Shown in pieces: positions 450 to 63,913 of a DNA stretch of 64,000 nucleotides. The stretch is from Aptenodytes patagonicus (taxonomy: Eukaryota; Chordata; Aves; Sphenisciformes; Spheniscidae): contig NC_134957.1 in NCBI RefSeq assembly GCF_965638725.1, forward strand, positions 20,112,101-20,176,100, read 5' to 3'. The translations under genes were made by a program, and so were the position numbers. The notes below the pieces were generated by a model. The model searched no databases. It was not told where the DNA came from and was given only the letters and a program-made list of their open reading frames with translations. The stretch's first letter is position 1; each line of letters begins with the position of its first letter.

Positions 450-666
450 GTTCAGTGGAGAGCCTGTCTCACACGACCTCGTCCCCGCAGCCATCGCCGG
501 CCGCCTCCACCCACGCCTCCCGCATCGCAGATCCCTCCTTCTCAGTTGACCACGCTGCTGCTGACGCATCTGCCGCAGAGGAGACCCCCAGCGAGTCAGA
601 GTCGGTCTTCCTCCCTGACTACCTCTTCCTCTCCAACTGCGAGTCGGGCAAGCTCAGCCACAACAG
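450..666 (+). CDS. GAB3: GAB3 exon (first in window), linker after the PH domain
   Basis: Acceptor ccattgcag ends at 449 and donor gtaggt starts at 667. The exon enters with two bases of a split codon and leaves with AG of an Arg codon. It encodes SVESLSHTTSSPQ, then a Ser/Ala-rich stretch, then the conserved DYLFLSNCESGKLSHNR segment. The GTG at 455 is an internal Val codon, not a start. Reading past the donor gives an immediate TAG. Confidence 0.88.
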
Positions 667-3600
667 GTAGGTGTGGGGTCTGCCAGATGCATCGGGCTGG
701 AGCCACCCTCTGCCTGCCCAGTGATGCCCTGGGAAACTGGGGCAAACTTGTCCTTGAGCCCTACCGCTCAGGATAGGCTCCCAAGCACAACAGGGGACCA
801 TCAGCTTAATCTAATTTGCAGGAGGCTTTTCATAGCGCAGATTAGCGGTCGAGTGTTGTATGTTGGTCCTGTCCCTTTCCAGGGTGAGTGGCTGGGGACC
901 TCACATACGGCCTCCCTCCAGATGCCCTTTCTACCTGCTGCTGCCCAGGGTGCTCCACAAAGTGCCCAATCCCCCAGCCCAGCTCAGGGGGCACCTTCTG
1001 CAGCCATAGGGAAGGGACAGATTTTGTCCCAAACTGTGGGGTTGGGGTTTTTTGCTGTGCGCTTGCTCAGTTGCAACCAGCAGAAAAGGAAAGCGCAGGT
1101 CCTGACCTCTGTCTCTGTGCAGGTGTGACAGCTGGTCGAATTCGGACAGATCTCTGGAGCAAACCTCATCAGACGATGTTTTTGTCGACTCCTTGCAGTC
1201 CCAGCCCTCCTTGTACCTTGTACAGCCGTCCAGCGCTGGCACTGTGCACCAGGATGGGGCCCCGTTGGCAAACCCCAGCACTGTGTCCAGGACCATAGAC
1301 ATTAACGGGCCACCCAGTGACTTTTCCTCCTCTTCTCCACTGCTGGGGACGCCGCTGACACCAACCTTTCAGATCGACAAGAGCCAAAACGTGCTGCCCT
1401 ACGGTGTAACCCAGCTGGACATCCTGTCCAACACACCCCCACCGCGGCCGCCCAAGCCAACCCACTTCTCAGACAGGAGAGGGGATGAGGTGGGCGGTGG
1501 GGCCCTCCAGAACGGGCACGCAGGGCTCTGCCGGGCTCAGGTCGCTCTGGTGCCCAGGAGGATCTCCTTGTCCAGCTTAGACAACGTGAGGAACTGGAAA
1601 GGTGAGTGCATTTCCGAGAGCCAGCAAAGCAGGGCAGGTGTGAGGGATGGAGCTGCACACCAGTGCAGAGCGGGTGCCCACCTCCAGTTGTGCCTCCCTG
1701 TCCTCCCCCCTGCGAAATCATATACCCCCCAAAGCAACCTGAAATGTTTGTTTCAAATTAGTTAGCGAGCAGGATTCAGACCTGTCCCTCACATTCATCT
1801 CCTGCTCTGTAAAAGCCCCTCAGTGTGTACACATGGGCAGCGATTTGGCTGTGATCTCTTCAGGGTGCCTCATGAATTGCTAGTTTTCCATGCCCGCTCC
1901 CTCTCCAAAAAAGAAAGCAGTAGAAAAACAAAAATGAAAAGCCAGCCGTTGAATCAGGCAATGCCAAACTCTTTAGTTATGCAGGTCAAAATGTGGGCTT
2001 GCACATGGGAAATGCCTTTGTAGCTGTGCTGCTTTGCTACATCCAGTCCTTTCCATAACAGCAGCATGTCTTTTCGCAGCTTAGAGTAAAGAACGGGAAG
2101 CCAGGGAGACGCTGGGGATGGGATGTAATCCTAGTTGAACCAGGGACTCCGTCCTTGAGCAAATCCCACTCTGACCTTGCACTTCAGTCAGGGTAGCCTG
2201 AAAACCCACTGCAGAGCAAGGCTCTGCTGCAAAGCAAGCTCTGCTCTGAGCTGAGGTGACTTTTCCACTTGTTCTTGAAACACCATCATCACAAACAAAA
2301 ATAACAGTCAAAACCCCAGAACATTAAGGTGTCAAAAACCAGCATACGCAGTATGAGAAAATCTTATTTTGTGGAGCCATGGAACAGAGGGATGCAGCTG
2401 GAATACCTGGCTGGAAATCATCAAGTATTTTGCAGTGATGCGTCATTTTTTTGAGGAAGAAAAAGTAGGTTTTTAAGAACTAGCGTCCTTTAGACTCCTG
2501 CAGTTTGAATGACCAACCAGTGTTTGGGGCCGTTAGATCTTGCTCTTAAAGCTCAGAAGCTAAAGCAAGGAGACCTCTGTCCAGGCTGTTTATCAGTGTA
2601 CAAACAATTCTTGGAAGGTTTCTGAAGAAACACCCATCAGTGGAACTGGTATTCTTAATTATCAGTTACATTCGGTTGCTCCCTGAAAGGTGCTGCTCTT
2701 GCTTCTGCACGTGTGCTGCTCTAACGATGCCACCGTGCTTGAGACAGTTAATGTTCCTCCAACTCAATTTATGACAAAATGTTTTTAAGAGGATTAAGTG
2801 GCCAAATGTCATGTTCTGCTACTGTGCTGCAAGGTTATCTCTGCCTGACAGGGGGCAGCAATGAATTAATAAGTGCTGCTATTTTTTCCTACCCTAAGTG
2901 CAGCTGAAACTGAAAGGTTAAACTCTGAATTAAAACGTGTTTAACAAGAAAGATTGGAAAAAGAAACAGGGAGAAAGCAGCTGTTCCTAACCAGCTCCCA
3001 AAGTGAGCCCACTCGAGTTATTTACTTCATTTTTTGCCCTTGGCAACCTGTAAAAGCTGAACAGATGTAGTTAACCCAGTGCAAAGGCAGCGTATGCTGG
3101 TTGCAGTGCCACGAAGGGGAACGAGCTGTACGTGTGTAAGGCACCTGTATCCTGGCATCTGCTGGAGTGTTGTGCCTGAATATCTTTTTGCCACAATAAT
3201 AAGTAAATGTAGGTGTCCCAGGACAGCGACTGTGTCTATCGGAATATATACACGCGCTAACAGTATTGCTTTGTTCTTGTTTAGCGCTTTTGCCTTTTAT
3301 GCTGGTACCACCACAGAGACCCCCACTTGCAGTGCAGTATTGACATCTCCGCTGTAAGAGCGGGGACTGGATTAACACGGTTGCAGGGTTTTAAGGCATT
3401 CCCACAGAAAAGCCATTTTCTGCACAGAAAATAATTTTCCAGAAAAGGATGGTAGCTGTAAGCATCTCCCGCTGCTAATCTTCTATGCACTGAATGCTGG
3501 ATTTCAATTTTTTTTGCCTTTTGCTTCAAAAGTAAAATTGACCTGCACCAAGACAAAGACCATCCTGCACAAGGGGGACACTGTGACTGGTGACTTTTTT

Positions 3601-6600
3601 TTTCTGGCTGTTTGTTCCCCATCAGCTTGAGCCACTTGCACCACATCAGCTTTTCTGGGTGACAAAGAAAAGCATTTCTCTCCTACCGTTAAGCTCCGCC
3701 ATGCACCCTCTGTACAATAACATGTGCTTCCCTGGCACCCTACATACGAGGCTCCCAAATAACTTCCCAAACAATAATGGATTAATATTTCCTACAATCC
3801 CTTTTCATATAATTTCCCCAGTTTGACAGACGGGGAAAATAGAGCGGGACTAGAGCAGGAGCTGGGTTTAAATTTTTGCTTGGTTACTTGCTCTCTACAC
3901 CACCCCAGTCTTTCTCCCCAACTGCTTGTGTTACAGGAAGCCCAAGCTACAGCTGGATTATACATGAACATGTTCCTTGATTTCATCATACTTAAAATAG
4001 ATGTAATAGCTCTTGAAATGCTACTGAGTTGGTTCTGGTCTTAAGTGTCGTTGGATTTCCTCATTTAGGATAAATACTAGGAGTTATGGAATCTTTATAA
4101 AGCTGTAATTATTTTAGAGCCATATGCTTTACTCCAGAATTATCTCCGTAAGGTTGTACTGCCTTATCACATTTTTAATCACTCTTTTCCCTTGCAGCAG
4201 ACATGGAAGGCAGTTCCTTAAGAAGTCGGGATAAGAGGCTTAGCTTGAATTTGGTAAGTACTCTGCTTGCATAAATTTAAAACACTGGCACATGACAAAC
4301 TTCAGAAAGTGAATCATTTCACATCCTGATATTCAATCATTCCTCTCCTGTGTTCAGCAGAAGAATTAAAAAAAAAATGGAAGAAGTACTTGGCTTTGGG
4401 CATCTTCTATGCTGCTTCTTTGCGGCCGCAGGAAGCCTTTGAGGGAGGGGGAGGCCACCACACTGAGCACCCTGTTTTTAAAGTAGGTGAAGCCAGGTCT
4501 GTTGTGAAAAAGGATACCAGTAGCCTCGAGAACTAAACTGTTGACAAAGAGCACCTGAGAAAACTGCTTATCTCTTGAAAAAAGGATCTAAAGAAGCCTA
4601 TCACTTCATGATCCTGAGGGATATCCCCTCTTTAGGACATAGAAAAGAGTTTGCTCTCAAAGCGCCTGTGATTCAGGGCTCTGTCAGTCCAAAGCTTCCT
4701 GACTCTGCCTTTGACAGACATGGTTGTATCATCACACATCACATAGCCAGTCTTCTGGCTGGCGCTGGACACTGTCTGCTGTGTGGGAGATCTTTTGCTG
4801 CTTGTATGTAAGTTCTGGTGGTGGGTGACTTATATTTTTCTCCCCATTGAAAGCTTGCAAGGCTTGTAATCAATCCCTCTCACCACTCAGCCAGCTCTAA
4901 CCTGCATGAAATGCATTTCTAGTGTTTATTCTCAGCTATCAGAAGTAACTTGTATGTCTGTGTGTCTGCTCTCTCAGCTTCCACATTTGCAAAAACCTAG
5001 TTCATCAGATGTTCTCCTTTCAGATGTGGTTTTTGTATGAAGGACCCTCCTTCGTTTTATAGGTCAGAATTACTGCTGGGAGAGTCAAGCACAGCCTCAC
5101 TGAAGTCGGAGGATTTAAACCTACTTAAGTGTCCAATAAGTTTGGTCCTCGTTTCCAGCAGTGACTTGCAAAGCTCAGAAGTGGTCCTCTCCAAAGCTGG
5201 AGTGTGCTTCTGAACTCATGCGTTTGTCTTGTGTCTTTCCAGCTTGCGCCTCTCAGGTCACGTCAGGACTCTCCTGGCCTGGAGCTCGGCTCAGATCTGT
5301 TGCCATCTCACAGCACCTCCTGGCTTGCAGGGGGTTAGCTATTCATTTATGGATCCATTTCTTTCTTTTCCTCCTTTGCTTCTGAAGCCCTGTCGGTTCT
5401 CCCCGCTCTACTCGACTGCTTCGGACAGCACGGAGGACAGCTACGTGCCCATGCGCCCCAGCACCTCTCCCTCTGCACCTGGCTCCGACTGTTCACCCGA
5501 CGGCTACATCCCCATGAGCCCCGGCTCAGCCACGTTTACCTTCCCTGTCGTCAGCACTGAAAAACTCACCAGCCCATTACCTGAGCTTCCCTCAGACCTG
5601 GAGCCCCCTCCGGTGAACCGAGACCTCAAGCCTCGTAGGAAATGTAAGCCCAGACCTAAAATGCAATCGGCAGCCAGGGGGTCCTGATAGCGGGGACATG
5701 GGTGACCTCTGATAGTGTCCTTGGTACATTTTTAAAGTGCTTCCCGCTCTAGAAGAGGGATTGAATTGCTGTATAAGTGGTTTATAGTACTGTAACGTAG
5801 GATGTGTCCACAGGGTGGTTTGTGAGCAGAGGAAGAGCGTCCGTGCCTACTTTTGCAGTCGGAGACCGGGTGGCTGCATTAGCATGGTGCATGGCTTCAG
5901 ATCCACTCTGACTGCAAATCACCAAATGGACGTAGCCTTGGAGAGACAGCAGACTAAATCCTGCAGCTCTGAAGTACGTGTACTGCTGTCTCACCAGCTC
6001 CCTGACCTTCCAGGAACAGGACATCCAAACACTCAAATACTCAAACTTGATGTGTGGGCTGTTGGTTAAACCTCTGTTGGGTAGGCGCAGCTGTCTTGGT
6101 TTAATTAGGAATTTCCTGCAGATGCTTTTACTGATGGTAATTTTCCACTCCTGCTTTTCATGGCATCTCCAAAATCTGGGTTGCACTTCCAGAGCTTATA
6201 CTGGGGACAAAATTCAGCTTTGCAGTGGAGAAATTGCCTAAGCCTAGCCTACGTTAAAGCTCTTTGGGCTGCAGAGCCACAGGGCTACTCAGAAATTGGT
6301 TCAGGAAATGCTACTGTGAAGTGCAGACAGAAACTTAGACCATTGCCAGGAAGTGAAGCAAGCTCAGGTCCTTTCTTAGGGGTTTTATGAGAACGGGGTA
6401 GAAAATGTACATGGACTGGTGAGAGGAATGATCTTGATCTCCACATGTAGGACCTTTTTGTTTAGAAGAGAGCCCAAAACCTGGTTTGACCTGTAGGCTG
6501 AACTGGCCTCTCCTCTTGAAGGCAGCATATGCAGAGCAGATCTGAGACAAGCACGTGGATCTTGTGGGGCATTTGCTCTCCTTATGCCCATTGTATTTAT

Positions 6601-9600
6601 TCTGTTATTTTAGGGTAAATGAGGGACTTTGCTTTCCAGCGCTGACTGAAGTGGTCATTTGTTACCGGTTTCTGCCTTGGTTATATCGTTATGTTCTGTG
6701 AAATACTCTGTTAGTTTCTTGCTGTTAATATAAAACTTCATTTTTTTCTAAACAGTCTGTACTTTTCATTAGCTCTGCTATTGGAAATGTAGTTCCTTTT
6801 GTATCTACTTGCAGCACGGCCACCTCCTCTGGACTTGAGGAACCTCTCCACAATCCGGGAGCATGCTGCCGTGACCAGGATGTGGACTGTGCCTTAGTAA
6901 GTCAACAAGAAACCTGTCCTTCCAATCTTTTAAGCATTAACATTGTGGAATGGAGTTAAAAATAACTTATCACATCCCACAAGAAACAGTTTCCTGGCAA
7001 AGTCCACAAACAAAAATTTCCCAGGGCTCCTTCCAGCATCCCCCAGGCTTTTGCTGTCTCTAAAAAGCAAGGCTCCCTTTCACGATGGGCAGCTCCAGTG
7101 CGTTCAGCATCACGCAGTGATGCTCAGTCTATTTTGAAGGTCCTTTTTGAAAAGGCTGGAGCTGGTCTGCACTCTGGTGTGACTGCTGCAATGGCTAAAA
7201 GCTGCACATGCCTTAATTATTTTTTTCAAAGTGATAGAGCCATTTTTGTTCCTGAAAATCAATATTGCAGAGGAGAACCAGATAAGATAAAGATCTGCCT
7301 GACTTGTAGCGTGGGTGTAGGCTTCCGCACTGCCACGCAGCAATTCAGACTGGATCTGTTGGTGTGACCTTTTGTCACTGGAAATTAGTTGTGGGGTAAA
7401 ACAAAGGCTTTTGGTCCCAAAGCCCAGGTAGTGTGAACAGGTGATACTGTTGGGCTCCAAGGGCAGTGAAAGACTCATCTTCAGGGAACTCGTGAGCAGG
7501 GGAGGACTGCAGCCTGCTGGCTGGGAGGATCTCGGCGCTACGGGGAAAGGCTGACAGGAGAGCCAGCTGTGCTGAAGTGTGCGTGCAAAAGCCAGGAATT
7601 CCCACCAACCTCCTCTGCGTACCCCGGGCACTCCGGAAAATGTGGTTTTTTTCACTAGTATCATTGCCAGACAGGACACTTCCACTCCCCCGTCTCAGGT
7701 AATCATTTGGAGGGCAAAAGGGACACGAGATGGGCAGTTTCTCAGTTGCAGACCCCTCTCTCAGCCGTACAGTCCAAAGCCGGTTAAGCCCTTCAGCGCT
7801 GCCTGCCGCGTGCTGCCTGTTAGGGAAACCCCAGTAGCCTGCCTCCCAAGCGTCCCTGCCAGAGCGCTGTGGTTAATTAGTGCTGACACAGTGCAGAGTC
7901 CTGAAGGATAACAAGGGAGTTCGCATGTTTTACATTAACAAAACTAAAAAAGAAGTATGCCCGGAACTAATAAAGCAAAGGGAATTATACTGTTCATGCC
8001 GCACAAAGCGGCCATCTAATTTCCTAATAACTAGCCCCATTGTGCTGGCCTGCAATAATTTACTCATGATATACCTCTGACAGTTACGTTAGTGGTAGAG
8101 ATTTCCTTGTACGAGGGCTGAGTCACAGCCATCTCCATAGCACAGGTAGCATGTGTTTGCACTGTGTTCAAAGCCAGGCAAGTTCCTCTGCATGCACCTC
8201 CAGTAGCCGATTAATTCGCATCAATCTCCAAAATGTGGATACCCACACAACTAAGTAACTGCCCTATCAGCACATATTACCCGGATGAATATCTGTCTCT
8301 GTGCCCCTTGTTGGAGAATTGCTCCAATGGTTTATGCTTTCTGTCATACCAGAGATGGCAAACTTTCATAAATCCCAGAGAAAAAAAAAAACCAACAAAA
8401 ACACTCATAGCAATATAGCACGCTTTTTCTAGAACTAAAGAGTGGTTTTGGACATCCTCTCCATAAAAGCTGCAGCGTTACTGTGAGTTTATTCACCATA
8501 TGGACTGTGTCAGGCTTTGGCTTCATTTCAGAGCATCTGTAAGATGCTTCCTTAACCTCTCCTGTGTTTTTCTTCATAGCAATCGAATGAGCTTTATCTC
8601 ACCAGAAAGAGACGGTATTAATTCAGCAAGAATATTTGCCAATTCAGTTTCCGGAGAAGAGGAAGAAAGTTACATTCATATGGTAATCTTCATTTTCACA
8701 CAGCCATCCTTTGCTTTATTCTGCTCTGTCACATTGATGGAGAATGCAGAAGTTTGTTTTCTAAGAAAAAATGTTGAGGAGGTTTGTCCTTTGCCTTCTG
8801 TTTTTTAAAAAAAATGATGAAACGGTTTTAAACCAAAGACACTGGGACCAATTTACAGAGAGATAAGGGAAGCCCTTCTTCTGCTCTGCAGAACTCAGCT
8901 GTTCGCCCACGAATGTTGCTGAGCAGTTCCAAGAGATCACAGGGATCAGCCATATTTACATGAGAACTCATTAAGGCAAAGGAAAATTAAATCTTTTCAC
9001 CTTTTAAAAGTGTGCCCTGCAAAATCTCCTAGGAAATGACAGAAAGCCGTTAGTGCACTTCCTAAAGAAACACACCAAATATTGTGCAGAAACAGAACTC
9101 CCATTAAAGTCTCTTATTGCTTCTGCTTTGGCTGGTGGCACTAACCCACTTCCCATCCCATGAAAGAAGAACATCTGGCTTTGTGGCTTCCTTTTCTTCA
9201 TTCACTCTTTAGCCATATCTTGCAAAAGACCAGAATCTCAGTTTCCTTTGAATTTTAGGTGGCAATGGATCTCAAATCCCTTGATCTGAGCCAATGTCTA
9301 CAGATTTGGCTCCATAGCCAAAGCCAAACGGCAGCGGCTCTAGAAATATATTGCAAAACTGACCACAATCTCCATGAAGCATAGTCTCAAATTTTAACCC
9401 ACATCTCTACTAGATCAAAATCCGCTCAGGAGGGCGGTTACAGTTGTAACTACTCCCCATTCGATTTTTCTAGTCAAATAAAACCTTCCATACGTTTATG
9501 GTCATCTGTGATTTTCCTGAGATTAATTTTCAGTTGCTAGATTTGAACAGAAGTATCACCATTTCTTCAAACTCACGGAACAATGATGGTTACGAGGGCA

Positions 9601-11169
9601 CCCCTGCAAATCTGAGCCTTCCAAGGGCTTGCGTTGAGAAGCTGGGCGCAATTCCTTCCTGATAGCACTGAATGAAAGTCAGCCCGGTTTGCTTGTTTTG
9701 CCATAATTACCAGGAGAAAAAGGCGCTCTGTTTCTTTATGCCATCCTGCAATTAATCAGTGTTATCCTGTTGCTAGTCACCAAATGCACCCATGGCATAG
9801 AAAATTATGCGGGTGCTGACCCTCGCACGCGTTCTGCCAGACAAGTCTCCCACCTCACAGTTACAGTCCTGCTTCCTTTTGGGATCATGTTTTAAGAGCG
9901 TTAAAAGTTTCTCTTCTTTCCCGACAGGAACAGAGACAGGCAACATCTCCATACAGTGGTGCTTTTCCATGGACAAGGAAATCTAACCTTGATTACTTAG
10001 CATTGGATTTTAATTCTGCTTCCCCATCCCCTGTACAGAAGGTATGAGTCATTTGCAAAACCCCACAGCCTCCTATCTTTTTGTTTGCTGGGAGGAAAAC
10101 AAGACCAAGAGTCAGGCTCTGCTAGGTGCCCTAAGTATCATCGTGAAGCCAGTCATGTTTCCAGCTGACTGCATTTGTGGCAGGCTCAAGATTAATGTAA
10201 TAAAAGCACTATAAGGGTGATGACAGGGTGTCCTCAGCGTGACTCATAGGGTTGCCATTAACACGAGCTCGGCAGAGGGCATGAGACTGCGCTGGGATGT
10301 GCAGCCATGAGGGCTTGTGAGCAAGCTTGTTGGTGCTTGCAGGATCTCTGCATGTTCTTTCATTTTCATCAAGTCTCCACAAACCCTTTCCTGCTAGTTT
10401 TCCCCCAAATCTCTTTGCGGTAACAAGTTTACAGCCCGTGATAAATTCACGGGGTAAAACTGTACCATCTCTTGTAACGTGGCAAAATGTGCATCTTTAT
10501 TCTTGCATTACCGAAAGCATTTCAATTTCCTTAGCAATGCTGAGAAAACCCATTCCTTGTTCCAAAGAGCTTATAACCTGCCCAGGCGGTGGGTAGGTAC
10601 CATTGCAGAGCAACGAACTGTTGTCAGTTTGGGCCACTTTATGTCCTGTGTATCATTTTCCCCATCAGCTAATACTCCTGGATGCAACAGACTCAAGACT
10701 CCTAAGCTTTCTTAAATTTAGACCCTTCCTTTAGTTAAAATGCAGTTAGGTTATCCCTGCAGCAGGATGACTTGGATGAGAAGGGAATGATTATCTGCAT
10801 GGAAATAGCCGGAACAGCACGTTTCCCTCGCTCACTGTGCTGGGCTGAGTGACAGGGTGACAGATGGATAATTATAGCTAAAGCAGGCTGTAAAGCAATG
10901 CTTTTGTCAGTTGATGTCACTGTGAGCTTCAAGGTGAAGTGAAGCAATCAAGGAACAAGGGAAAGCGAAAACAGAAAATCAAGCCAAGTTTCACTAGCAT
11001 CCCTTTTCAACTCTAAAATTAATATGTTGTTTTTTTCTTTTCTCTCCCACAGAAACCTTTTCTCTCTGAGGAGCAGAGAGTGGACTATGTCCAGGTAGAT
11101 GAACAGAAGACTCAAGCTTTACAGAACACTAAGCAGGAATGGACAGATGAGAGGCAATCGAAAGTCTAA
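450..11169 (+). CDS. GAB3: GAB3, GRB2-associated-binding protein 3 (3' eight coding exons; 5' part outside window)
   Basis: Docking adaptor that acts under the plasma membrane downstream of cytokine and growth-factor receptors, recruiting PI3K, SHP2 and GRB2 (family knowledge). Eight exons join in one frame: 450-666, 1123-1601, 4198-4253, 5388-5643, 6815-6896, 8580-8682, 9928-10041, 11053-11169. All inner junctions are GT-AG. They encode about 473 residues plus stop; human GAB3 is about 586 aa, so the missing ~115 residues match the N-terminal PH domain upstream of the window. Visible motifs in order: DYLFLSNCE, PPPRPPKPTH and PPVNRDLKP (GRB2 SH3 type), YVPM, YIPM and YIHM (YxxM, p85 SH2 type), DYLALDF, and DYVQV near the C-terminus (SHP2 SH2 type). 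The end VDYVQVDEQKTQAL...WTDERQSKV is GAB3-like rather than GAB1 or GAB2. No break was found. Confidence 0.93.
1123..1601 (+). CDS. GAB3: GAB3 exon with GRB2-SH3 binding proline motif
   Basis: Acceptor tctctgtgcag ends at 1122 and donor gtgagt starts at 1602. The longest exon of the gene here (479 nt). It encodes CDSWSNSDRSLEQ, a Ser/Pro-rich region with LLGTPLTP, then PPPRPPKPTH, an atypical GRB2 SH3-binding PxxxRxxKP motif, and ends with RRISLSSLDNVRNWK plus one base. The basic RRISLSS stretch is a plausible 14-3-3 or basophilic kinase site (inference). Confidence 0.92.
1602..4197 (+). other. GAB3: GAB3 intron, 2.6 kb
   Basis: Bounded by gtgagt and the cagcag acceptor. No repeat family or additional exon was recognised. 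Confidence 0.75.
4198..4253 (+). CDS. GAB3: GAB3 short exon
   Basis: A 56-nt exon between acceptor cccttgcag and donor gtaagt. With the preceding G it encodes ADMEGSSLRSRDKRLSLNL, a conserved basic/serine segment of GAB3. The acceptor is a NAGNAG tandem (cagcag): using the second AG would drop one alanine without changing the frame. Confidence 0.88.
4254..5387 (+). other. GAB3: GAB3 intron, 1.1 kb
   Basis: Bounded by gtaagt and ttctgaag. Nothing else was recognised. The other GAB3 introns are 667-1122, 5644-6814, 6897-8579, 8683-9927 and 10042-11052, and they are likewise without recognisable features. Confidence 0.75.
5388..5643 (+). CDS. GAB3: GAB3 exon with YVPM, YIPM and second GRB2-SH3 motif
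   Basis: Acceptor ttctgaag ends at 5387 and donor gtaagc starts at 5644. It encodes PCRFSPLYSTAS, then EDSYVPM and DGYIPM, two YxxM motifs expected to bind PI3K p85 once phosphorylated, then SSPLPELP-like sequence (here TSPLPELPSDL) and EPPPVNRDLKPRRK, the second GRB2-SH3 type motif. Translation through the donor stays open for 14 codons and then stops. Confidence 0.93.
6815..6896 (+). CDS. GAB3: GAB3 exon
   Basis: An 82-nt exon: acceptor tctacttgcag, donor gtaagt at 6897. It encodes SRPPPLDLRNLSTIREHAAVTRMWTVP and ends CCT TA, so the Tyr codon is completed by the C that opens the next exon. The TAG visible at 6895-6897 straddles the splice site and is not in the mRNA. Confidence 0.9.
8580..8682 (+). 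CDS. GAB3: GAB3 exon with YIHM motif
   Basis: Acceptor tttttcttcatag ends at 8579 and donor gtaatc starts at 8683. It encodes NRMSFISPERDGINSARIFA followed by an acidic EEEESYIHM. The YIHM at the 3' end is the third YxxM motif (YIEM in human, from memory). Confidence 0.92.
9928..10041 (+). CDS. GAB3: GAB3 exon with DYLALDF motif
   Basis: A 114-nt, phase 0-0 exon: acceptor tttcccgacag, donor gtatga at 10042. It encodes EQRQATSPYSGAFPWTRKS followed by NLDYLALDFNSASPSPVQK. The DYLALDF motif is shared by GAB-family C-terminal regions and is a tyrosine phosphorylation site in this family. Confidence 0.92.
11053..11169 (+). CDS. GAB3: GAB3 terminal coding exon
   Basis: Acceptor tctctcccacag ends at 11052 and TAA lies at 11167-11169. 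It encodes KPFLSEEQRVDYVQVDEQKT and on to the end ERQSKV. VDYVQV is the conserved C-terminal tyrosine motif, which in GAB1 and GAB2 binds SHP2. The terminus is the best single marker that this is GAB3. Confidence 0.95.
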   Translation, partial: KPFLSEEQRVDYVQVDEQKTQALQNTKQEWTDERQSKV

Positions 11170-11648: not shown

Positions 11649-11654
11649 AATAAA
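11649..11654 (+). terminator. Proximal polyadenylation signal AATAAA for GAB3
   Basis: Canonical AATAAA about 480 bases after the stop codon, in an A-rich context. It could give a short 3' UTR isoform. No clear GT-rich element is seen immediately downstream. Confidence 0.4.
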
Positions 11655-15823: not shown

Positions 15824-15829
15824 AATAAA
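15824..15829 (+). terminator. Distal polyadenylation signal AATAAA for GAB3
   Basis: Canonical AATAAA after a run of T-rich sequence containing TTGTATATATTTGCACATT, with a GT-containing stretch (gtagctgtgatc) just after it. The arrangement looks like a genuine vertebrate 3' end. Confidence 0.5.
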
Positions 15830-38869: not shown

Positions 38870-39262
38870 ACGTTTTTATTTCTTTCTTTTAAATCCGCCC
38901 AAAGAACAAAGAGCTGGTGGAGGAGGAGGTTCGGGCCGTGTGACCGAGAGCCCCCCTGCCCTGCCGGGGGGGGGGTTCCCCGCCGCCAGCGGGGACACCT
39001 GACGCCCCGGCGGGAGGGACGGCACCCGCTCCCAACCCGCCAGACGCCCACTGACGTCCCCTGTGACGGAAGAGCCCCGCGGGGCACGCGGCCGCACCGC
39101 GCGCGGCTTCCCGCCGCCCGCCGCGCGCGCCCGCCCCAGGGGCGACGGGGCGCGCCGCGCAGCGCCGGCCGACCCCTCCGGAGCGGGGCGGGCGCGCGGG
39201 GCGGGCGCGAGGGGCGGGGGCGAGGCGGGCGGTCACCTGACGCCGCCGCCGCCGCCGCGGCC

Positions 39263-39274
39263 GCCGCCATTTTG
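39263..39274 (-). promoter_or_regulatory. YY1-type motif
   Basis: GCCGCCATTTTG is the reverse complement of CAAAATGGCGGC, the classic YY1 core often found just after the start of transcription in TATA-less CpG-island promoters. Confidence 0.55.
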
Positions 39275-39619
39275 TCTGGGAGTGTAAATGTGAAAGGGAA
39301 AGCCGGAGCGCAGCCCGCGGGAGGAGGCAGAGGAGAGCGGGGCCGGGCGCGGCCAGCTGAGCCGGCGGGGCCGGGAGGCGAGGGGTCGCCGCCGCACCGC
39401 AGAGCAGCGCGGGGCTGTGGGAAGAGCCGCCGGTGAGGCGGAGCCCGGCGAGGACTCCCCGGTCGCCCTCGCCGGCGTCGCATCGGAGCGGGCTGCCGGC
39501 GCTCTTCGCCCGGGGAGGCTGCGCTCGTCCCTCGGCCGCGGGGGAGCCGCTGCCCCGGCCTTGCTGCCCGCCGCGGCGGGTCCGCGGGGGGAGCCGCTGC
39601 CGCCAGGGCCGCGCCGACG

Positions 39620-39749
39620 ATGTCGGGGCAGTCGATCACCGACCGCATCACGGCGGCGCAGCACAGTGTCACCGGTTCGGCCGTCGCCAAAGCCGTCTGC
39701 AAGGCGACGACCCACGAGGTGATGGGCCCCAAGAAGAAGCACCTGGACT
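39620..39749 (+). CDS. PICALM-like exon 1 (start of ANTH)
   Basis: ATG at 39620 in context gccgacgATGT (A at -3). It encodes [20 protein letters not shown] and continues to KKKHLD plus one base, with donor gtgagt. It carries helix 0 and the K28, K38-K40, H41 lipid-binding residues. The start is fixed by the family's invariant MSGQ N-terminus. Confidence 0.95.
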
Positions 39750-51700: not shown

Positions 51701-54700
51701 TTGACTTCACCAAAATGAAAAGAGGGTAAGACTGTTACTGCTTCTTTTGTTTGGTCTTTCATATTGGGGGGGAGGGAAATACCAGTTGTTCTTGAGCTTT
51801 TGGCCCTTTGAAGCAATATAGTATTATTGAAACAGCATAATATGCTGAGGTCTCTTGGTAACTTGTAAACGTGTCTTCTACTCTGTAGGATAGATGGAGT
51901 GATGAGAACCATGAATGCGGAAAAGCTTCTGAAAACCCTTCCAATTATACAGAACCAGCTTGATGCACTCCTTGATTTTGATGTAAGTACTTTAGGTAAC
52001 ACTCTCTCATTTTTAAGTGAGAGTTTCGTTATTTTATTAAATACTAATTTACTTTCTCATTGCTTTCTACACAGGCAAATCCAAATGAACTAACAAATGG
52101 TGTTATAAATGCTGCCTTTATGCTCCTCTTTAAAGATTCCATTAGACTTTTTGCAGCATACAATGAGGGGATTATTAATCTTTTAGGTATGTGAGAATTT
52201 TTTTAGCTTTTGAACTTTTGTGAAAGATATTGAGAGAACTAAAGAATATAGACAATTTCTGACTGCAATTTCGTAATAAATTCTCTGCTCTATTACCATT
52301 AAATTAAGCCTGCCTTAGTTTCAGTGGCAACTAGCATAGGCTTAAACATGTGCTTCTACCTTGAAGAATACATCTTGAAACAGAAATTGAGATGAGAGGG
52401 TGACTGGTGAGACTAAAACAAAGATACCGTAAATGTGCAGTGGATAATCTTTGGCAACTGAGCTGTGAAAGTATTTAGTGAGGTATCTGGTATTTTGAGT
52501 ATTTAGTATAGTCACAGTATGACTGGCTTCTGGTTTCCCATAATTTCTTTAGAGCCTGACTATTCACTTTTACCTGGTACCTGAATCTACATGAGCCTAG
52601 TAGATGACACGTAGGGTTTTTTGTTCAAGAGTGGTAAGCTCTTAGAAAAGCCTTATAATGACTATTCAAGCAAATTTCTGAATGAGAACATCTGATCAGT
52701 TTGCTCTGTTAATCCATTAGTTTTTACTCAATGAAAAATCCGTTAGTTTTTACTCAATGAAATATCTATAAGTATATAGGGCAAAACCATAAAAAGTGAA
52801 GGATGTGGTTGATACTCCTTTTGGTAGGTCAGTTCAGTATATGTACCGCTTCAGTAGCCGTTCTGATGTCTTTTGGATATGGAGCCCATTTACAAACATC
52901 AAAACATATTGATACAGGGTCTAAAAATGTAAATACATACCAGGAATATTTTCAAATGATAAAATAATTTGCCTCATTGCCAGCTAGTAAGCTGACTTCT
53001 TGAAAATATTCCCCCTAAATACCTAATTTAACAATTGCAGTGATTCACGTCCATGCTTAATAAAGCTTTGCATTATATTCTCATGTACTGAAATAGAAAA
53101 ATCAATGGTTTTCTATTGACTGACTTATTACAAAAGGTGTCAGGTATTAATGTAAACTTTAAAATCTGAATAGCTTTGAGTTACTCCTGTCTGTTCTCTC
53201 CCTGAAGCTTGTCTCGAATTAACTTTTATAATACTGTGTCACCTTCTTGCTGCGAAGGCTGTTATCTTACAAGAGTTTTATTTGCATCCTCAGAAAGATA
53301 TTTTGATATGAAGAAGAACCAGTGCAAAGAAGGCTTGGATATTTACAAAAAATTTCTAGCCAGAATGACCAAATTGTCAGAATTCCTCAAAGTAGCAGAG
53401 GTAAATAAATCTACGTCTATGGAAGGGATATCATTTAGCTGTCTGTACTGGTGCAGTGGTCTATATTCATAACAGCAACTTCACAAACAGATTAATATTT
53501 GCTTAACTTTGCTATAGAAGGAAGCATTCTACAGATTAGGTATTTTAAAGTTTGTATACGCTCATTAACATGAAGTGAGATTCTTGGGTATCCTTTTCAT
53601 TAGCCAGACAACATAGTAAACTTTCTGAAGTGTTGTTACATTTTGAACTGTTCATGAAATTTATATGAACTGAATGTTACAGTCTATTTACAGTGCTCCC
53701 CTTTACTGTAACTGCTCAAAGTGGAGTAGTTCCAGTAAGCAATGTGGGTGTTTCTCATGCTCCCCGTAAGCTTTTCTGCGTGGAAAAGTTAGGCTGGATG
53801 AAAAGTTGGGTTTGCTTTGAGATGCAATTTAATGCACTTGTGATTTCTAAGGTGTGTTCCTACTGAAAATCGTACCTGTTCAGAAAGTTATGAATATCCC
53901 TTTTGAATATGTTAGTTTCTATGTAACATTCAGACATCACTGGTTTTTATTTTCATTGCCACTGCATGTAGTAATGTACGGGTTTTTTTCTTCTTTTTTT
54001 GTAAACCCAGCAAGTTGGAATTGATCAGGGTGACATTCCAGATCTTACTCAGGTCAGTGTACATATCGTATTGATTAACCCAATTATTTTGTTCTTTGTG
54101 TTTTTAAAGGTTGGTGTGTATCGTAGTAATCATTCATCTCAAGAATGTATTCTCTTCTATGTCTTTATATATGGGAAATATGTACGGTGACTTTTCCCGT
54201 GGATTAAATGTACTCAGTATTCACACTTTGCAGCTCCTAATAAGATTTTTGGATTGTTTAAAGCAATAAAACTCAAAATATTTTTCAAGAACTTCTGGTT
54301 TTTATCACAGAAGATTCACTGACATATAAGCTACAAGCATCTTGCCATGCCTTCAGGAAAACCTTCCATTTCACTGTAATTTAATGTCTTCCAACACACT
54401 TAAAGATTACAGTTAGCTAGTTCGGTCTAGAATTTTTTCTTTCCCCTGAGGTCTGAATAGATTTGATGTTTCTATATCAGCACTTAACGCAGGCTTCGAT
54501 ATTACTCAGTAATATGAGGGACATGTGCAATACAGGTTGTGCACTGGAACACTTAGCCTAAAAGGTGGAATGCAGGGGAATACCTTCTAAGTGAGGATAA
54601 ATTGAGGGGCAGAAAGGAGGTGAGAAAGATGGTTTGACCTGGTGAACAGGAAACACTGATAGCCCACAGAAGGGCACAAAGTTATTCTTTGCAAGTTCCT

Positions 54701-57700: not shown

Positions 57701-60700
57701 GGTTTTTTAATCTTCTTCATCGCTTTAAATAAAAACAGCTTAATGTTTAAAACTTCTCATGGGTAACACTTTTCCAGGGGAGGGATGGGGACAGAAGGGA
57801 TGGAGATGGAATCCGCAAAAAAACCCAAAAACTTTATTTGAGGTGATGTTGCTAGTTTCTAATGTTTTAGGCTACCAAAGGCTTTGGAGTAATTGAGTTG
57901 GTTTATTGTGTAGTCATGTGTTGAATAGCTACTCCGTCTGCAATGGTATTGTTGGGATTAGGTTGAATTTGATTGCTTTTTTTAATCAAACCTAACATTC
58001 TGCTGTAGTCAAGTGTTTCTAATGCAAGCCTTTGACTGTAAATATTTGAATGGAAAATGATTGGCTTTTTATTGTTACAGGGGAAAGGGGGTCAAAAATG
58101 CAAAGGCTTCATTTTGGTACTTCTGCGAGTTTAAGGGAGTACTGCTTAATCAGCTGTGATTACTGGATTAATCTTAACATAGCAAATACTGTTGCCAAAA
58201 ACAAGAATGTGACTTGCTACACAGAAGCAGACCTACTCTGGGGGAATCCTTACTTCATGGCTCTGTGGTGCCACTCCTTTTAAAGAACCACAACTGGGTA
58301 GATAGAATTCAGGTATGCAGGATGGCAGCAAAACCCAAAGGCACAATTACTGATGTGTGGGGTTTTGTTGTTAGTGGATGAGGAAACTAATCTGTGTACT
58401 AAACAAGGATGTGTTGTCTAGAAGCAGTGTTTTATAAATACTTTAACTTTAGGCACCCAGCAGCTTGCTTGAAGCACTGGAACAGCATTTGGCTTCTGTG
58501 GAGGGAAAGAAAACAAAAGAAGTCTCCGCTGCCAGCAGGTGAGCACCCAATGAATTATAACGATGCCTATACTTAGGATTTGTCATCTTCATACTGAGAA
58601 TTTTCAGGATTCAGTCATTTGGTGTTCTCCTTGAATTTTATTCACTTCCAAATATATCTTCCTAGAAGTATAAATGAAGCATCTAGTGACTAGTAGTCTG
58701 ATAGCTTAGTCACATTTGAAATCTAGGTATGTCTGCCTGTGTCTCTGACAGACTTCTTATTCTGCTGTAATAAACCACTGAGCTGAGACCTTGTATATTA
58801 TTCTTTTTAGTTTTTAGTTGTTTGAAGTCCTTTGGCTTATAAGACTTCTAAGTTATTTGGGTTTTGAGGCTCTTTTTACCCAAGATAGGATGGTATTTAT
58901 CTTGGTCAATTACCTACTTCTCGGACCGTGAATTTATCTTAACCTGCTTATAAAAGTTCTTCAGTCCCTTCTCAGAACAGCCAAATTAGCTTAGATGCTT
59001 TGTGCTGGCAGGAATTGTGTTACTCTTTGTATCGATACATATGAGCAGTACTTCTGACTTAAGAGTGAGAGATATCTTTTGGCATAGGCATTCTCCCCCC
59101 GAAACTTGGTAAATACTGATAAATGTATCAGTGTAAGGTATATTCCTGAGTTGCTGTCTTGCTCCTCAGATTTTTTTTTTGCAAGTATCTGAGGATTCAC
59201 TACTACAGTATTCTGCTAAAAAGTATACTATATAAAGAATAACTTCTGTGCTTTGTTTACTGTTATATATATAATATGTACAAATAAGCTTTTTGTGCCT
59301 CTGCCACTTGAATGGAATAGAATTCCAGTCTAGTCTATGTGACCTTAAAGAAAAACAACTGGTGTGTTCTGCGTTTTCCAGTTCCTACCCGCTGAAACTT
59401 GAGGGAGTAGTCCTCTGTACTCATGCTGCTTTTTCACCAAACCCCCTCATTATTGGGGTGTCTGCGTTTCTGTACCAGAGAGAAAAGACTGGAGTGGAGG
59501 GGGAATGGCACACAACTAGATAAGGCACTTGATGATTATGTGATGTATACCTGGCTGTTTTTTGTAATAAAACTTTTTTTAATTATTACTGTTTTTAGAG
59601 CTAGTGCCCTATCCAGTGCTGTTTCCACACTTGCCAATACAGGAATGTCATTTAGCAGGATGGATGAGAAAGAAAAGCAGCAGGCATTGGAGGAGGAACA
59701 AGCTAGACTGCAGGCACTTAAGGTACTGTATTTTTTACAAGTTTGTATTCTGAGATTTTTTTTTTTAAGTGGTACAGGTGAAAACCAGGGTTGGCTTAGA
59801 ATAGCGTATGGTGGGGGAACTCTCATCTTAAGAGAGGTCAAGGCATGATTCTGTAGGATGCAGGTGTGATGGCTGCCAATATGTGGTGACCCTTCTACCA
59901 GGAGTATGATTTGAATAGCAGACAGCTGATATAAATCACTTATATTCTTCCTTATAAGAGATCGTTATTTATCTCAAAGATTCCCAAAATGAGTATACAA
60001 CATTTCTAGGTTACATCTCAGCAGCTGAACATACAGCATTGCTATTGTAAGACTGATGATTGGTAGGAGGGGAATTATTTTTCCCCATGATGTATGGAAT
60101 GTGGCTTTAGTGTGATTCTTCACTCATGTTGCTCATAATGAGAATACACACTACAGTTCTGTCCACGTTTAACTGCTCTTACTTATAATTCTATAATTTA
60201 GCTTGAAAAACTGTTTGAAATCGTATGTATTTAGGTTTAATTTATGGACTTTGAATAATAATACATTTGAAAGAAAATCAGCGTGTTCTCTCTTGGTTCC
60301 TTAATGTGCTTTCCTTTGCTCATTGGTACTTGTTGAGTAGTCCTCTTAGTAACATCCCTCTCAAGGCCTGAATCCTGGTCCTTCGGGTCCTTTTAACCTG
60401 TTTATAACACTGTTTCCTGAGAACATATACAGTATAAAATCTCGAACAAGGCAAGACGCTTCTCTTGCTGAAAGCTAAACCTGTAGTTCTGTCATGTCCC
60501 AGGCACACGCAAGTGGGGCAGTTGGGGAATTTTTCTTCTGTTGCTTTAACATCTCTAGACACACCTAAACGATGGAGCAAGTCTCGAGGCCACGTTACAA
60601 GAGCCTTAAAACTATTTGGAGTGTGAAAGTAAACTTTGACAGTAATGCAGAGTTGAGTTTCGTCTCTGGAGTTAGAGGTCTATTGAAGATTCTTCACTTT

Positions 60701-63700
60701 CCTGACTTGGTGTAAGGCATATTTTTCAAATCAATGTGAAGCAGGTTTCCTGCTATTAGACTACAATCTTAGTGTGCCTTGCTGCCTGCTGCCGAACTGC
60801 TTCACTTGAATCTCAGCAAGTGTTGTGGTGGTGATGTTGTTTGGTTTTTTTGGTTGGGGTTTTTCTTTTTTGTTTTCAGGAGTTGCATCAGATGTCTCCC
60901 TCTTCACTGTCCCACTTTGGCTAGAATAGGACTTGTAGCTGCTGTAACTGAATAATTAAATCAGCTGATAGAAATCTTCATCTGGGGGCAGGGAAGCTTG
61001 CAAGCTCACTCAATGTTTTACTTGAGGAATGTAAGCAGTGTAAAACATACACCTGTGCTATATAAATGCAGTGGGCATATCTAGAAGTAACGAGGGATGT
61101 AAACCTAAAATTAACAATGTAAACTAGATTTTTATTTTGCCAGTTTAAGAGCAACACCACATGGATATTATTAGGATGCACATTGTTAGTCTGACTTCTG
61201 AGCATCTGAATTGAACTATGAAGAGATCCTAACAGTAGAGAGAGATGGGTCTTCCTGAACAAAGGTCCATTGACCTGTTTCTCTGAGTGACTGTGAAGGG
61301 AGCTTAGAATGTGTAGCTTGATTAGAAGTGTTTTACTTCTAGGCACTTATAGATAGTTTAAAAAAATAATTATTTAAAACCTCAAGTCCCACCTTGATTT
61401 TTATAAAGGCTTTCTTAAAACAAATACTCCTATCTCTAATTTCAATCATCTTTCTGTTTTCAGGACTTTACAGGAGAATGACTCATTTATTAGGACCATA
61501 ATTAAAATGTCTTCTTGGAAAAGGTCTTCAGGACTGAAGGGTTAATAAATTAATAAAACTAAGATGCAAACTGTCTATCTCATCTTTCAGGAGCAGCGAT
61601 TAAGAGAGATTTCTGTAGTATCAAATTCCACTTCCACATCAGCATCCCCAAGCACCTTATCAGGAAAAAGTGTGAATACCACTGTAGCTGTTGACCTCTT
61701 TGCAGTACCAGCACCCACAACAAATAGGTGAGAGAGACTTACTTTGCTTTCTGAAGCAAGCAGAAATTACTGCATTGGCCTGTAGCTCCACAGTCAATTG
61801 CAAAGCACTGATCCTGGTTACTTTTCAAGAATAACCTTTTGCTGATGTTTTCCTGGTGTATTCACAAGAATTTTGGTATTGGTCAATAAGTGCTTAATTA
61901 CTAGTTTTGTTTTGTACCACTATTATTGATGGGCTACTAGTGAACAAGAGAAAGTGAGATTGGTATGGGTGTTTGTATAACACAAGAATACAAGCCTGTT
62001 GCGTATTTTCACGTTTCTCTCTCTCTCTCTTTTCTTATTCAGCATGCCCAACCTTTCTAGTGATCTTTTTGATCTTCAGCCTGCATTTGTTCCAACTGTG
62101 CAGAGTACTCCAGCTATATCAACATCAGCAAGCAGTGCTTGGGGAGGTGAGCTGATACGATGATTTGACTGTCTAAATGATGGGTGTATTCTCAGAATAC
62201 AAGAATAAAATACAGATTCATACTTAATTGAATCTACATCTTAAACCTTAATTACTTTGTATTTAAACATCTCTATCCTTGACAGAATATAAAATAAGTC
62301 ATCTGAAAGCTCTGGCAAACTGTTATAGAAAAGTTACTTTTTTTTTTAACGCATAGCAGTAGCGTCAATGTGCAGTAGATGGAAGGAAGGAGCTATTCAA
62401 TAAAGGGGCCAGGTAGAAGAAACGTAACTAAAAATCAAAGTTTAAAAATGCTGGGAAATATAAACTAAGCAGATGTAACTGAGAAGATGCTGGACTAGTA
62501 TTTCCATTCCATTAAGTGATATTAATTAATACACTTCTCATTTAAAAGGTGTTGGTGACTTCAAAGTTCTTATAATAAAGCTGTCGTTCCCAGTTTCTTG
62601 GGCACAGCATTCTCCATACCCTCACCCATTCCTCCAAAGAATAATCAGGGTAGATGTCAAAGAAATGTCTTAAATGCTGAAATAAGGCAATGTTAACACC
62701 ACTGTAAGTGTTGGTATTTTAATAGGTGTAATTGATACCCTTATGTGCTATTTAAAAGGTAGATTCTTGAAGCCAAAAATGTAGTATCTAACTTTTTTGA
62801 CTGATTAATGTTCTGTCACTCTCCTCCTCCCACCCAATGGCAACACTAGAATTATTTTCTCTAGAGAGAGCTGTTAGGATTTTTATCTGAAACTAAGAAT
62901 TTGTATCTTTAATGGGCTGAGCACTAGGTGGAATATTTACAGTATGATTTTGTCTAGAGATTCTCATATGCAGTCATTTCAGTCTGGTTTTCTTTTCCAT
63001 TATTTGTACTCTGTATTCTTTCCTTCACTTCTGCATCTGAAAGGTCCTTTCTCGTCCTCAAATGGTTGTGTTGGTTCTCCACCTCATCTGGACATCTTTG
63101 ACATGAAGCCAGTTGAAGAAGCTGTAAAATCTACCACCCCTTTCATCATTTCTACTTTTTCCTCCAAACAAACGGTGGAACTGTTTAGTGGTAAACAAAC
63201 AAACAAAACCCATGTAATTTCTTTGCAACTGGAGATGATAATGCTAATAAACTGGGCCATGTAATCTTTTTGTGGTTTGGACCAATCTTCACTTTTTATT
63301 AACAAGTGAAAATGGTGCATTAATTCCAGATGTAGTCAATTACATGTTTCCTTAAAGTTTTATTTCTACAGTTGAAATAACTCATTATTTTGTTAAGCTT
63401 GCCCAACCTAGACATCCTAAGACTTGCAATTTTGCTGGAATTTTTGCTGATTTCTTTCAAACTGCAATCTCCTTTCTCTTTTGTAATGGGGAATGCAGGA
63501 GTTACTTGAGCTTTTCAAATTTGTTAAATTAAAAAAATCCTTTTTATTACTAAAAATTCTTAATTTTTAACTGCAGACTTAATTTTTAGGTCCCCTCTCC
63601 CTTTTTCTCTTTTAAACTGATCTTATTTTCTTCTCTCTTTTTATGAAGATGACTTTAGTGGTCATAAACCTACATATGCTTCTGTGTATCATCCTCTGAC

Positions 63701-63913
63701 TGTTGATGGTAATTTGATTATTTTTTTGTAAACTTTCTGGTTTCACTGTAATGAGTGGTATTACTCCATGGGTGTATTGATTACTCTAAATTTTTTTTTC
63801 AGGTTTTCCTCTTCATTCAGCTCCTCCAAGTACCACCTCTTCAACAATTAATGTGGACTTTGATGCTGTTTTTGGAGGAAAATCTACAGCACCAGAGTAC
63901 AGGACTACAAGTG
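39620..63913 (+). CDS. PICALM-like clathrin assembly protein (CALM/AP180 family), first 15 coding exons; 3' end outside window
   Basis: Endocytic adaptor of the ANTH family: binds PI(4,5)P2 at the plasma membrane and recruits clathrin and AP-2 (family knowledge). Fifteen exons join in frame for 525 codons plus one base; every junction is GT-AG and exon borders correspond to those of PICALM. Residues 5-18 form the amphipathic helix-0 segment ([14 protein letters not shown]). Phosphoinositide ligands K28, K38, K40 and H41 are visible. The ANTH domain runs to about residue 285. The tail has [36 protein letters not shown] and VDFDAVFGG, motifs of the DLF and FxxF kind used for clathrin/AP-2 binding. 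Many ANTH positions differ from PICALM (for example [25 protein letters not shown]), and PICALM is otherwise nearly invariant among vertebrates, so I call it a paralogue. The C-terminal part is missing only because the window ends. Confidence 0.88.
39750..47764 (+). other. PICALM-like intron 1, 8.0 kb
   Basis: GC falls sharply after the CpG island, to AT-rich DNA. No repeat family or coding exon was recognised. It contains two short inverted repeats (43815-43870 and 45301-45328). Confidence 0.7.
47765..47907 (+). CDS. PICALM-like exon 2
   Basis: Acceptor tttaatgtag, donor gtaaga. It encodes [20 protein letters not shown] then [20 protein letters not shown] and LMMYGNE, a core ANTH helix set with the conserved SSWVVVFK and TTHHLM stretches. 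Confidence 0.95.
47908..50703 (+). other. PICALM-like intron 2, 2.8 kb
   Basis: AT-rich; no repeat or exon recognised apart from an alternating AT stretch near 50205-50230. Confidence 0.7.
50704..50779 (+). CDS. PICALM-like exon 3
   Basis: Acceptor ttcaccaacag, donor gtaagg. It encodes [20 protein letters not shown] and KSAMQ. The NLNNYLD replaces the NLSNFLD common to PICALM and SNAP91. Confidence 0.95.
50780..51622 (+). other. PICALM-like intron 3
   Basis: Holds a 25-base tandem duplication at 51336-51383; otherwise unremarkable. Confidence 0.7.
51336..51383. repeat. 25-bp tandem duplication
   Basis: The 23 bases starting gcttggttcttgcctaatat occur twice without mismatch, 25 bases apart. 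Confidence 0.92.
51623..51725 (+). CDS. PICALM-like exon 4
   Basis: Acceptor aacttttag, donor gtaaga. It encodes [20 protein letters not shown] and [14 protein letters not shown]. The first half is invariant in the family; YRLVAVDF diverges from YRQVAFDF. Confidence 0.95.
51889..51982 (+). CDS. PICALM-like exon 5
   Basis: Acceptor cttctactctgtag, donor gtaagt. It encodes [20 protein letters not shown] and [11 protein letters not shown]. The intron before it is only 163 bases and the one after it 92 bases. Confidence 0.95.
52075..52186 (+). CDS. PICALM-like exon 6
   Basis: Acceptor tttctacacag, donor gtatgt. It encodes [20 protein letters not shown] and [17 protein letters not shown], closely matching the family. 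Confidence 0.95.
52187..53293 (+). other. PICALM-like intron 6, 1.1 kb
   Basis: Holds a 26-base tandem duplication at 52711-52762; nothing else was recognised. Confidence 0.7.
52711..52762. repeat. 26-bp tandem duplication
   Basis: Two adjacent 26-base copies, each ending tttttactcaatgaaa, that differ at one base (aatccattag versus aatccgttag). Confidence 0.92.
53294..53400 (+). CDS. PICALM-like exon 7
   Basis: Acceptor tgcatcctcag, donor gtaaat. It encodes [20 protein letters not shown] and [16 protein letters not shown]. The Arg in ERYF replaces the usual Lys. Confidence 0.95.
54011..54052 (+). CDS. PICALM-like exon 8 (42-nt small exon)
   Basis: Acceptor gtaaacccag, donor gtcagt. It encodes [18 protein letters not shown] agrees with SNAP91, where PICALM has DLSQ. 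Too short to be found as an ORF; identified from the family sequence and intact splice sites. Confidence 0.93.
54053..58452 (+). other. PICALM-like intron 8, 4.4 kb
   Basis: AT-rich, with a 21-base T run at 56622-56642. No repeat family or exon was recognised. The remaining introns over 300 bases (53401-54010, 58539-59598, 59723-61590, 61728-62042, 62147-63043, 63191-63648) likewise show nothing else. Confidence 0.7.
58453..58538 (+). CDS. PICALM-like exon 9 (end of ANTH)
   Basis: Acceptor aactttag, donor gtgagc. It encodes [20 protein letters not shown] and TKEVSAAS plus two bases of an Arg codon, with the conserved LEQHLASxEGKK closing the ANTH domain. Confidence 0.94.
59599..59722 (+). 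CDS. PICALM-like exon 10
   Basis: Acceptor actgtttttag, donor gtactg. It encodes [20 protein letters not shown] followed by [20 protein letters not shown] and K. The charged helical end EEEQARLxALK is typical of PICALM and absent from the matching place in most SNAP91 forms. Confidence 0.94.
61591..61727 (+). CDS. PICALM-like exon 11 (tail, DLF motif)
   Basis: Acceptor tcatctttcag, donor gtgaga. It encodes [10 protein letters not shown], a Ser/Thr-rich stretch, and [12 protein letters not shown]. The VDLF is a clathrin/AP-2 binding type motif. Confidence 0.92.
62043..62146 (+). CDS. PICALM-like exon 12 (tail, DLF motif)
   Basis: Preceded by a (CT)n polypyrimidine tract and cttattcag; donor gtgagc. 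It encodes [20 protein letters not shown] and [15 protein letters not shown], comparable to the NDLLDLQ...STWG section of PICALM. Confidence 0.92.
63044..63190 (+). CDS. PICALM-like exon 13 (tail, AP180-like DIFDMKP)
   Basis: Acceptor gcatctgaaag, donor gtaaac. It encodes [33 protein letters not shown] and TVELFS. The [10 protein letters not shown] segment resembles LDLFAMKP of SNAP91 more than the corresponding PICALM exon. Frame and phase fit both neighbours. Confidence 0.85.
63649..63708 (+). CDS. PICALM-like exon 14 (60-nt small exon)
   Basis: Acceptor ttttatgaag, donor gtaatt. It encodes [20 protein letters not shown], joining in frame to ELFS before it. Possibly alternatively spliced, as tail exons of this family are; its length is a multiple of three. 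Confidence 0.82.
63803..63913 (+). CDS. PICALM-like exon 15 (last in window)
   Basis: Acceptor tttttttttcag, donor gtaaaa. It encodes [20 protein letters not shown] and [16 protein letters not shown]. The NVDFxxVFGxKST block is a clear PICALM-family landmark. Confidence 0.92.

Follow-up and report, generated by a model that had tools for sequence, protein, structure and literature searches.

Among the leading risk genes for Alzheimer's disease is PICALM, whose product is a standard endocytic adaptor. Its family, CALM/AP180, is commonly taken to comprise two genes, a count based on mammals. Humans are not known to have a third CALM gene besides PICALM and SNAP91 (AP180). Human PICALM lies on 11q14, as does GAB2. 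We analyzed 64,000 nucleotides of DNA of a bird, Aptenodytes patagonicus (G000:C9:20112101-20176100; hereafter the window, G000 being the window's own genome and C9 its contig), in which an initial annotation had placed GAB3 beside a PICALM-like gene. This second gene, here designated CALM3, adds a new member to an established family and has no proper name in birds.

CALM3 resembles PICALM in its ANTH domain, its exon phases, the residues of the PIP2 and SNARE sites, the clathrin/AP2-type motifs of the tail, and the C-terminal IQFM. It differs in full-length sequence, five CALM3 relatives being 61-63% identical to human PICALM, and in position, as CALM3 adjoins GAB3, outside the TENM4-GAB2 block. 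With SNAP91 it has in common the ANTH family, the exon phases, and DLF-type motifs, whereas ANTH identity to the SNAP91 of the same genome is 79.9%, and SNAP91 has its own clade (support, 100/98) and its own locus, on contig C3 near a malic enzyme gene. Compared with the GAB2-PICALM region (human 11q14), the locus is alike in that a GAB, a CALM, and a teneurin gene occupy one chromosome stretch in G000; unlike the window locus, the GAB2-PICALM region of G000 has its two genes 2.5 Mb apart and on opposite strands, with a teneurin gene between them.

RESULTS

GAB3 and CALM3 lie head-to-tail

Of GAB3, the window contains the 3' portion (450-11169); the CALM/AP180 gene (39620-63913) starts 28.5 kb downstream of the GAB3 end. 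Both genes are on the + strand and extend past the window, so that neither is whole inside it. The head-to-tail arrangement given by the initial annotation was confirmed, and the two limits that it gave, 450 and 63913, coincide exactly with exon edges. GAB3 is represented by eight coding exons on the + strand, with AG acceptors throughout, GT donors except in the last, and a single open frame running to a stop. These are 450-666 (the first inside the window; 56% identity to human GAB3 by tblastn), 1123-1601 (53% identity), 4198-4253, 5388-5643, 6815-6896 (78% identity), 8580-8682, 9928-10041, and 11053-11169 (the last, with the stop; 88% identity); the four exons listed without a percentage were placed by a match to human GAB3 together with splice sites and open frame. 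Wherever both human GAB3 and human GAB2 matched, the GAB exons of the window scored higher with GAB3 than with GAB2 (for 1123-1601, 172 versus 40 bits by tblastn). Upstream of the window, matches to the PH-domain exon and the first exon of GAB3 were found at C9:20105373 and C9:20058574, respectively. Elsewhere in G000, a GAB2-like gene occupies a separate locus on C1 and a GAB1-like gene one on C4. Judged by similarity, the CALM family alone having been treed, the GAB gene of the window is GAB3, nearer to GAB3 than to GAB2.

That no gene lies between GAB3 and CALM3, as had been annotated, agreed with a + strand scan, not exhaustive, in which none of 10 open reading frames located between 12.5 and 39.5 kb matched Pfam at an E value of 0.1, including the one with the best-scoring exon candidate of that stretch (28201-28696). 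An Rfam scan of the whole window gave no match.

CALM3 is an intact, intron-containing gene

A CpG-rich stretch at 38001-40000 (GC of 0.59 in its first kilobase and 0.78 in its second; CpG observed/expected of 0.83 and 1.02, respectively) covers the CALM3 start codon. Base composition shifts sharply at this stretch, from a GC content per kilobase of 0.38-0.60 in 1-38000 to 0.34-0.42 in 41001-64000. Within the window, CALM3 has 15 coding exons on the + strand, with AG acceptors (the start exon excepted) and GT donors, and its reading frame is open over 525 codons plus one base. Exon 1 (39620-39749; donor GTGAGT) carries the start codon, the N-terminal helix, and the PIP2-site lysines and is 91% identical to human PICALM. 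Exons 2 to 12 were placed by protein match and splice sites, at 47765-47907, 50704-50779, 51623-51725, 51889-51982, 52075-52186, 53294-53400, 54011-54052, 58453-58538 (exon 9, in which the ANTH domain ends), 59599-59722, 61591-61727 (exon 11, with a DLF motif), and 62043-62146 (exon 12, with a DLFDLQ motif). Exon 13 (63044-63190) is present in bird relatives, e.g., P0001 and P0029, and missing from some isoforms of relatives; exon 14 (63649-63708) follows, with an FSDDF motif at the exon 13/14 junction, and exon 15 (63803-63913) is the last inside the window, from which coding runs on beyond it. Some turtle, tuatara, lizard, and alligator isoforms lack exons 13 and 14 (63044-63708). The final coding exon starts at 68857 (window numbering), 4.9 kb beyond the window end, and coding ends at about 68870.

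Over the ANTH exons, the splice phases of the window gene agree with those of both PICALM and SNAP91 of the same genome. CALM3 is therefore no retrocopy, an origin ruled out by the introns that it has in common with these two genes.

PICALM and SNAP91 have separate loci in the same genome

A search of G000 with the window protein gave at least 33 matches, of which 30 had E values of 3e-4 or below and fell without exception at three loci, one each on C9, C1, and C3; the remaining three, on C3, C1, and C5, were weak (E values from 0.29 to 6.1). On C1 lies an orthodox PICALM. Apart from split or partial hits, identity of its ANTH exons to human PICALM is 97-100%, and that of its ANTH domain as a whole is 99.3%. 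The gene on C3 is SNAP91-like. The ANTH domain of the window gene is 88.9% identical to that of its own PICALM, 95.0% identical to that of Callorhinchus CALM3 (over 238 positions), and 98.3% identical to that of echidna CALM3. A standard PICALM separate from the window gene, for which the initial annotation had asked, is thus present in this genome.

The names PICALM, SNAP91, GAB1/2, TENM1-4, and ME1/3 in G000 were assigned from similarity and human gene positions, only CALM having been treed. Beyond the three CALM loci, further ANTH-domain matches occur at G000:C17:678120, C15:6503532, and C13:6872108; these are perhaps HIP1/HIP1R-like.

The CALM3 clade predates the jawed-vertebrate crown

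The gene tree comprised 44 rows, i.e., 38 fetched proteins, the window protein, PICALM and SNAP91 of the same genome and of human, and Drosophila LAP. The 38 proteins were hand-picked from 305 fetched to spread over lineages, and mis-spliced or redundant models (e.g., P0274, P0280, and P0281) were excluded; PICALM and SNAP91 were sampled from bird and human only. In the full-length tree, the window gene fell in a 39-row CALM3 clade (support, 99/98), apart from PICALM (99/95) and SNAP91 (100/98). PICALM was sister to CALM3 (97/89 jointly), with SNAP91 outside both. The CALM3 clade held chimaera, bony fishes, coelacanth, lungfish, amphibians, reptiles, birds, and echidna; chimaera branched first and ray-finned fishes next, followed by coelacanth, lungfish, amphibians, and amniotes. 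The echidna was placed, with weak support, within reptiles (85/66) though expected to be basal, and a basal position was not rejected (AU P = 0.317). A tree of the ANTH domain recovered the same three clades (CALM3, 99/97), with less order within CALM3. Both trees thus unite the window gene with its counterparts in other vertebrates and separate it from PICALM and SNAP91, which bears out the phylogenetic expectation of the initial annotation. The CALM3 clade predates the jawed-vertebrate crown.

In AU tests on full-length sequences, a bird-specific duplication (P = 0.00137), a tetrapod-specific duplication (P = 0.00213), and a grouping of chimaera with PICALM (P = 0.00486) were all rejected. 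With the ANTH domain only, the grouping of chimaera with PICALM was again rejected (P = 0.0085); a bird-specific duplication was not (P = 0.102), a result that counts against the antiquity of CALM3.

CALM3 is carried from chimaera to echidna under other names

The first protein search gave 7,997 hits, of which the best 120 were 119 birds and one crocodile. Shorter pieces served as queries for two more searches, and among the matches listed (best 120 of each) were geckos, other lizards, snakes, tuatara, turtles, and crocodilians; frogs (Xenopus laevis), caecilians, and a salamander; and lungfish, coelacanth, gar, bowfin, many teleosts, and the chimaera Callorhinchus. CALM3 was also found in a monotreme, the echidna (Tachyglossus; P0258). 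The initial annotation had suggested that the gene may have been kept in birds and lost from the mammalian GAB3 locus. It is indeed kept in birds but is not specific to them, being present in chimaera, bony fishes, amphibians, and reptiles as well, and the loss does not extend to mammals at large: since the echidna has CALM3, any mammalian loss is therian rather than mammal-wide. No therian was among the named rows of the three best-120 lists, which come from length-limited searches, include a few unnamed rows, and are no proof of absence. CALM3 is probably absent from all therians. For the marsupial Antechinus, Table 3 of one study gives 70.9% identity to human PICALM for the "PICALM" gene model and 87.4% for its transcript (PMC9631953). 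Going by these tabulated values, the model could be a poor one or another CALM gene; for comparison, the five CALM3 relatives are at 61-63%.

In databases, CALM3 is named PICALM-like, "picalm like" (Xenopus), LOC772071 (chicken), or Si:ch211-200p22.4 (Callorhinchus) or is merged with prefoldin 3. By sequence and tree, the Xenopus, Gallus, and Callorhinchus entries are the same gene as that of the window; they differ from the present description in that database entries for CALM3 are unnamed or merged with prefoldin subunit 3, and we saw no statement of origin in them. Public databases thus have a labeling problem, with 12 of 120 listed CALM3 records named prefoldin subunit 3 and many named plain PICALM. 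Among the papers listed in searches of open-access literature, a scope in which absence is weak evidence, none described a third CALM gene in its title or abstract start; these papers included ones naming picalma/picalmb, PICALML, or "PICALM like."

CALM, GAB, and teneurin genes recur together

Gene order was compared within G000 only, and the teneurin and malic enzyme families were picked beforehand from the human 11q, Xq, and 6q regions. The order on C1 is ME3-like (219.6 Mb), PICALM (221.2 Mb), TENM4-like (223.3-223.4 Mb), and GAB2 (223.8-223.9 Mb); that on C9 is TENM1-like (18.8-18.9 Mb), GAB3 (20.06-20.12 Mb), and CALM3 (20.15-20.18 Mb). On C3, ME1-like (41.1 Mb) and SNAP91 (41.3 Mb) lie within 41.1-41.4 Mb. 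GAB1 and a TENM3-like gene are on C4, where the search with the window protein found no CALM match, and a TENM2-like gene is on C12. Three families (CALM, GAB, and teneurin) are thus together on both C1 and C9, and the pair of CALM and malic enzyme genes is found on both C1 and C3. Random placement produced two disjoint CALM-GAB pairs, each within 2.7 Mb, in 115 of 400,000 trials, a rough, post hoc figure that ignores gene clustering. The argument of the initial annotation, that two gene families paired in two places point to an ancient segment duplication, was extended by the third family, the teneurins, with the correction that PICALM and GAB2 are not neighbors in G000 (2.5 Mb apart on C1, on opposite strands and with the teneurin gene in between). 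Malic enzyme exons with identical scores were also seen at G000:C33:2878665 and C34:2874190, perhaps reflecting two haplotypes or a recent duplication.

CALM3 is predicted to be a PIP2-binding clathrin adaptor

The ANTH domain (residues 1-289) matches PDB 1hf8 ("clathrin assembly protein short form") with an E value of 2e-173, CALM3 ANTH domain identity to the solved ones is 89%, and PF07651 is precomputed for close relatives. In the KATTHEIMGPKKKH stretch, K28, K38, K39, K40, and H41, which we take to form the PIP2-binding site, are identical to those of human PICALM, as are L219 and M244, presumably the contact residues for VAMP8 (SNARE). The start helix is kept, with L6 replaced by I. As far as it lies in the window, the tail has three D[LI][LF] motifs and one FxDxF motif, all of them motif matches only, and neither DPF nor NPF. 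Of the 39 CALM3 rows, 37 lack the DPF found in human PICALM, the exceptions being Callorhinchus_b and Engraulis, and FSDDF (FxDxF-type) is found in 4 of 39, from birds and crocodile; several other rows are isoforms without exons 13 and 14.

Since the PIP2 site, the VAMP8 site, and the start helix are kept and the tail has DLF-type motifs, we expect CALM3 to act in the same way as PICALM. Its ANTH domain would bind PI(4,5)P2 as well as small R-SNAREs, the latter by their helix, and the DLF-type and FxDxF motifs of the tail would recruit clathrin and AP2; CALM3 would in this way sort SNAREs and help set the size of coated vesicles, like PICALM. On its sequence, we infer that CALM3 is a PIP2-binding clathrin adaptor, perhaps with AP2 and clathrin binding shifted relative to PICALM.

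Splice sites of CALM3 and its neighbor VBP1 are in phase

VBP1 (prefoldin subunit 3) lies downstream of CALM3 on the same strand, past the window. Both an ANTH and a prefoldin domain (PF02996) occur in 6 of the 120 listed relatives, from duck to songbirds (P0012, P0014, P0017, P0019, P0021, and P0022). In G000, the CALM3 exon ending in SETQ stops at 68271 (window numbering; G000:C9:20180371) at the donor GTGAAC, and VBP1 exon 2, which begins with EDVDSF, starts at 79554 (window numbering; G000:C9:20191654) in the same phase as that donor. The SETQ-EDVDSF junction is the one found in the starling protein P0012, and the junction of the duck protein P0019 differs. CALM3's own last exon (IQFM and stop), at 68857, is 0.6 kb beyond the SETQ donor. 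Farther on, at about 74.5-75.5 kb, sequence rich in GC and CpG points to a promoter of VBP1's own. With splice sites in phase in G000, a CALM3-VBP1 fusion is possible.

DISCUSSION

We consider it highly probable that CALM3 is the third vertebrate CALM/AP180 gene, most likely of 2R origin with the GAB-teneurin block, located beside GAB3 and retained throughout the jawed vertebrates, a monotreme among them, and that humans, and probably all therians, lack it. The early vertebrate 2R duplications would have given rise to PICALM, SNAP91, and CALM3, in a block with GAB and teneurin genes. The recurrence of CALM, GAB, and teneurin genes on C1 and C9 is the pattern expected of 2R blocks, and CALM3 is most likely a 2R paralogue. 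Of the other origins considered, the one with the best prospects, though still improbable, is a third CALM gene as old as the jawed vertebrates or older that arose by a single-gene or segmental duplication instead of 2R: Drosophila LAP is the sole pre-2R outgroup in the tree, and the CALM and GAB genes of C1 are separated by 2.5 Mb, but against such an origin stands the recurrence of the three families on C1 and C9, together with that of the CALM-malic enzyme pair on C1 and C3.

A lineage-specific duplication of PICALM, in birds, sauropsids, or tetrapods, that landed beside GAB3 is very unlikely; the ANTH-only AU test (P = 0.102) does not reject a bird-specific origin, and opposed to a lineage-specific origin are the full-length tests (P = 0.0014 for birds and P = 0.0021 for tetrapods) and the fact that chimaera, gar, bowfin, teleosts, coelacanth, and lungfish have orthologues. 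Bird- and tetrapod-specific duplications were set aside on the full-length tests, the ANTH-only result for birds counting against this step. There is next to no chance that the window gene is the ordinary PICALM of the bird, diverged or misassembled, as the many database records labeling it PICALM, with no "like," would have it; this reading is refuted by the second, orthodox PICALM on C1 of the same assembly, with its ANTH domain at 99.3% identity to human PICALM versus 88.9% between the window gene and that PICALM. A scenario that goes further than the 2R origin of CALM3 is unlikely: vertebrates would have inherited three CALM genes, therians alone would have dropped the GAB3-side copy, and birds would also splice CALM3 in frame into VBP1, making an ANTH-prefoldin fusion besides CALM3.

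For the family, these results mean that CALM3 has been kept since before the split of chimaera and bony fishes and that CALM, GAB, and teneurin genes are a fresh three-family marker of the 11q-Xq duplicated block. In chicken, frog, and fish, the database "PICALM" is at times CALM3, and work on PICALM in these animals has a background of a similar adaptor that is missing in humans.
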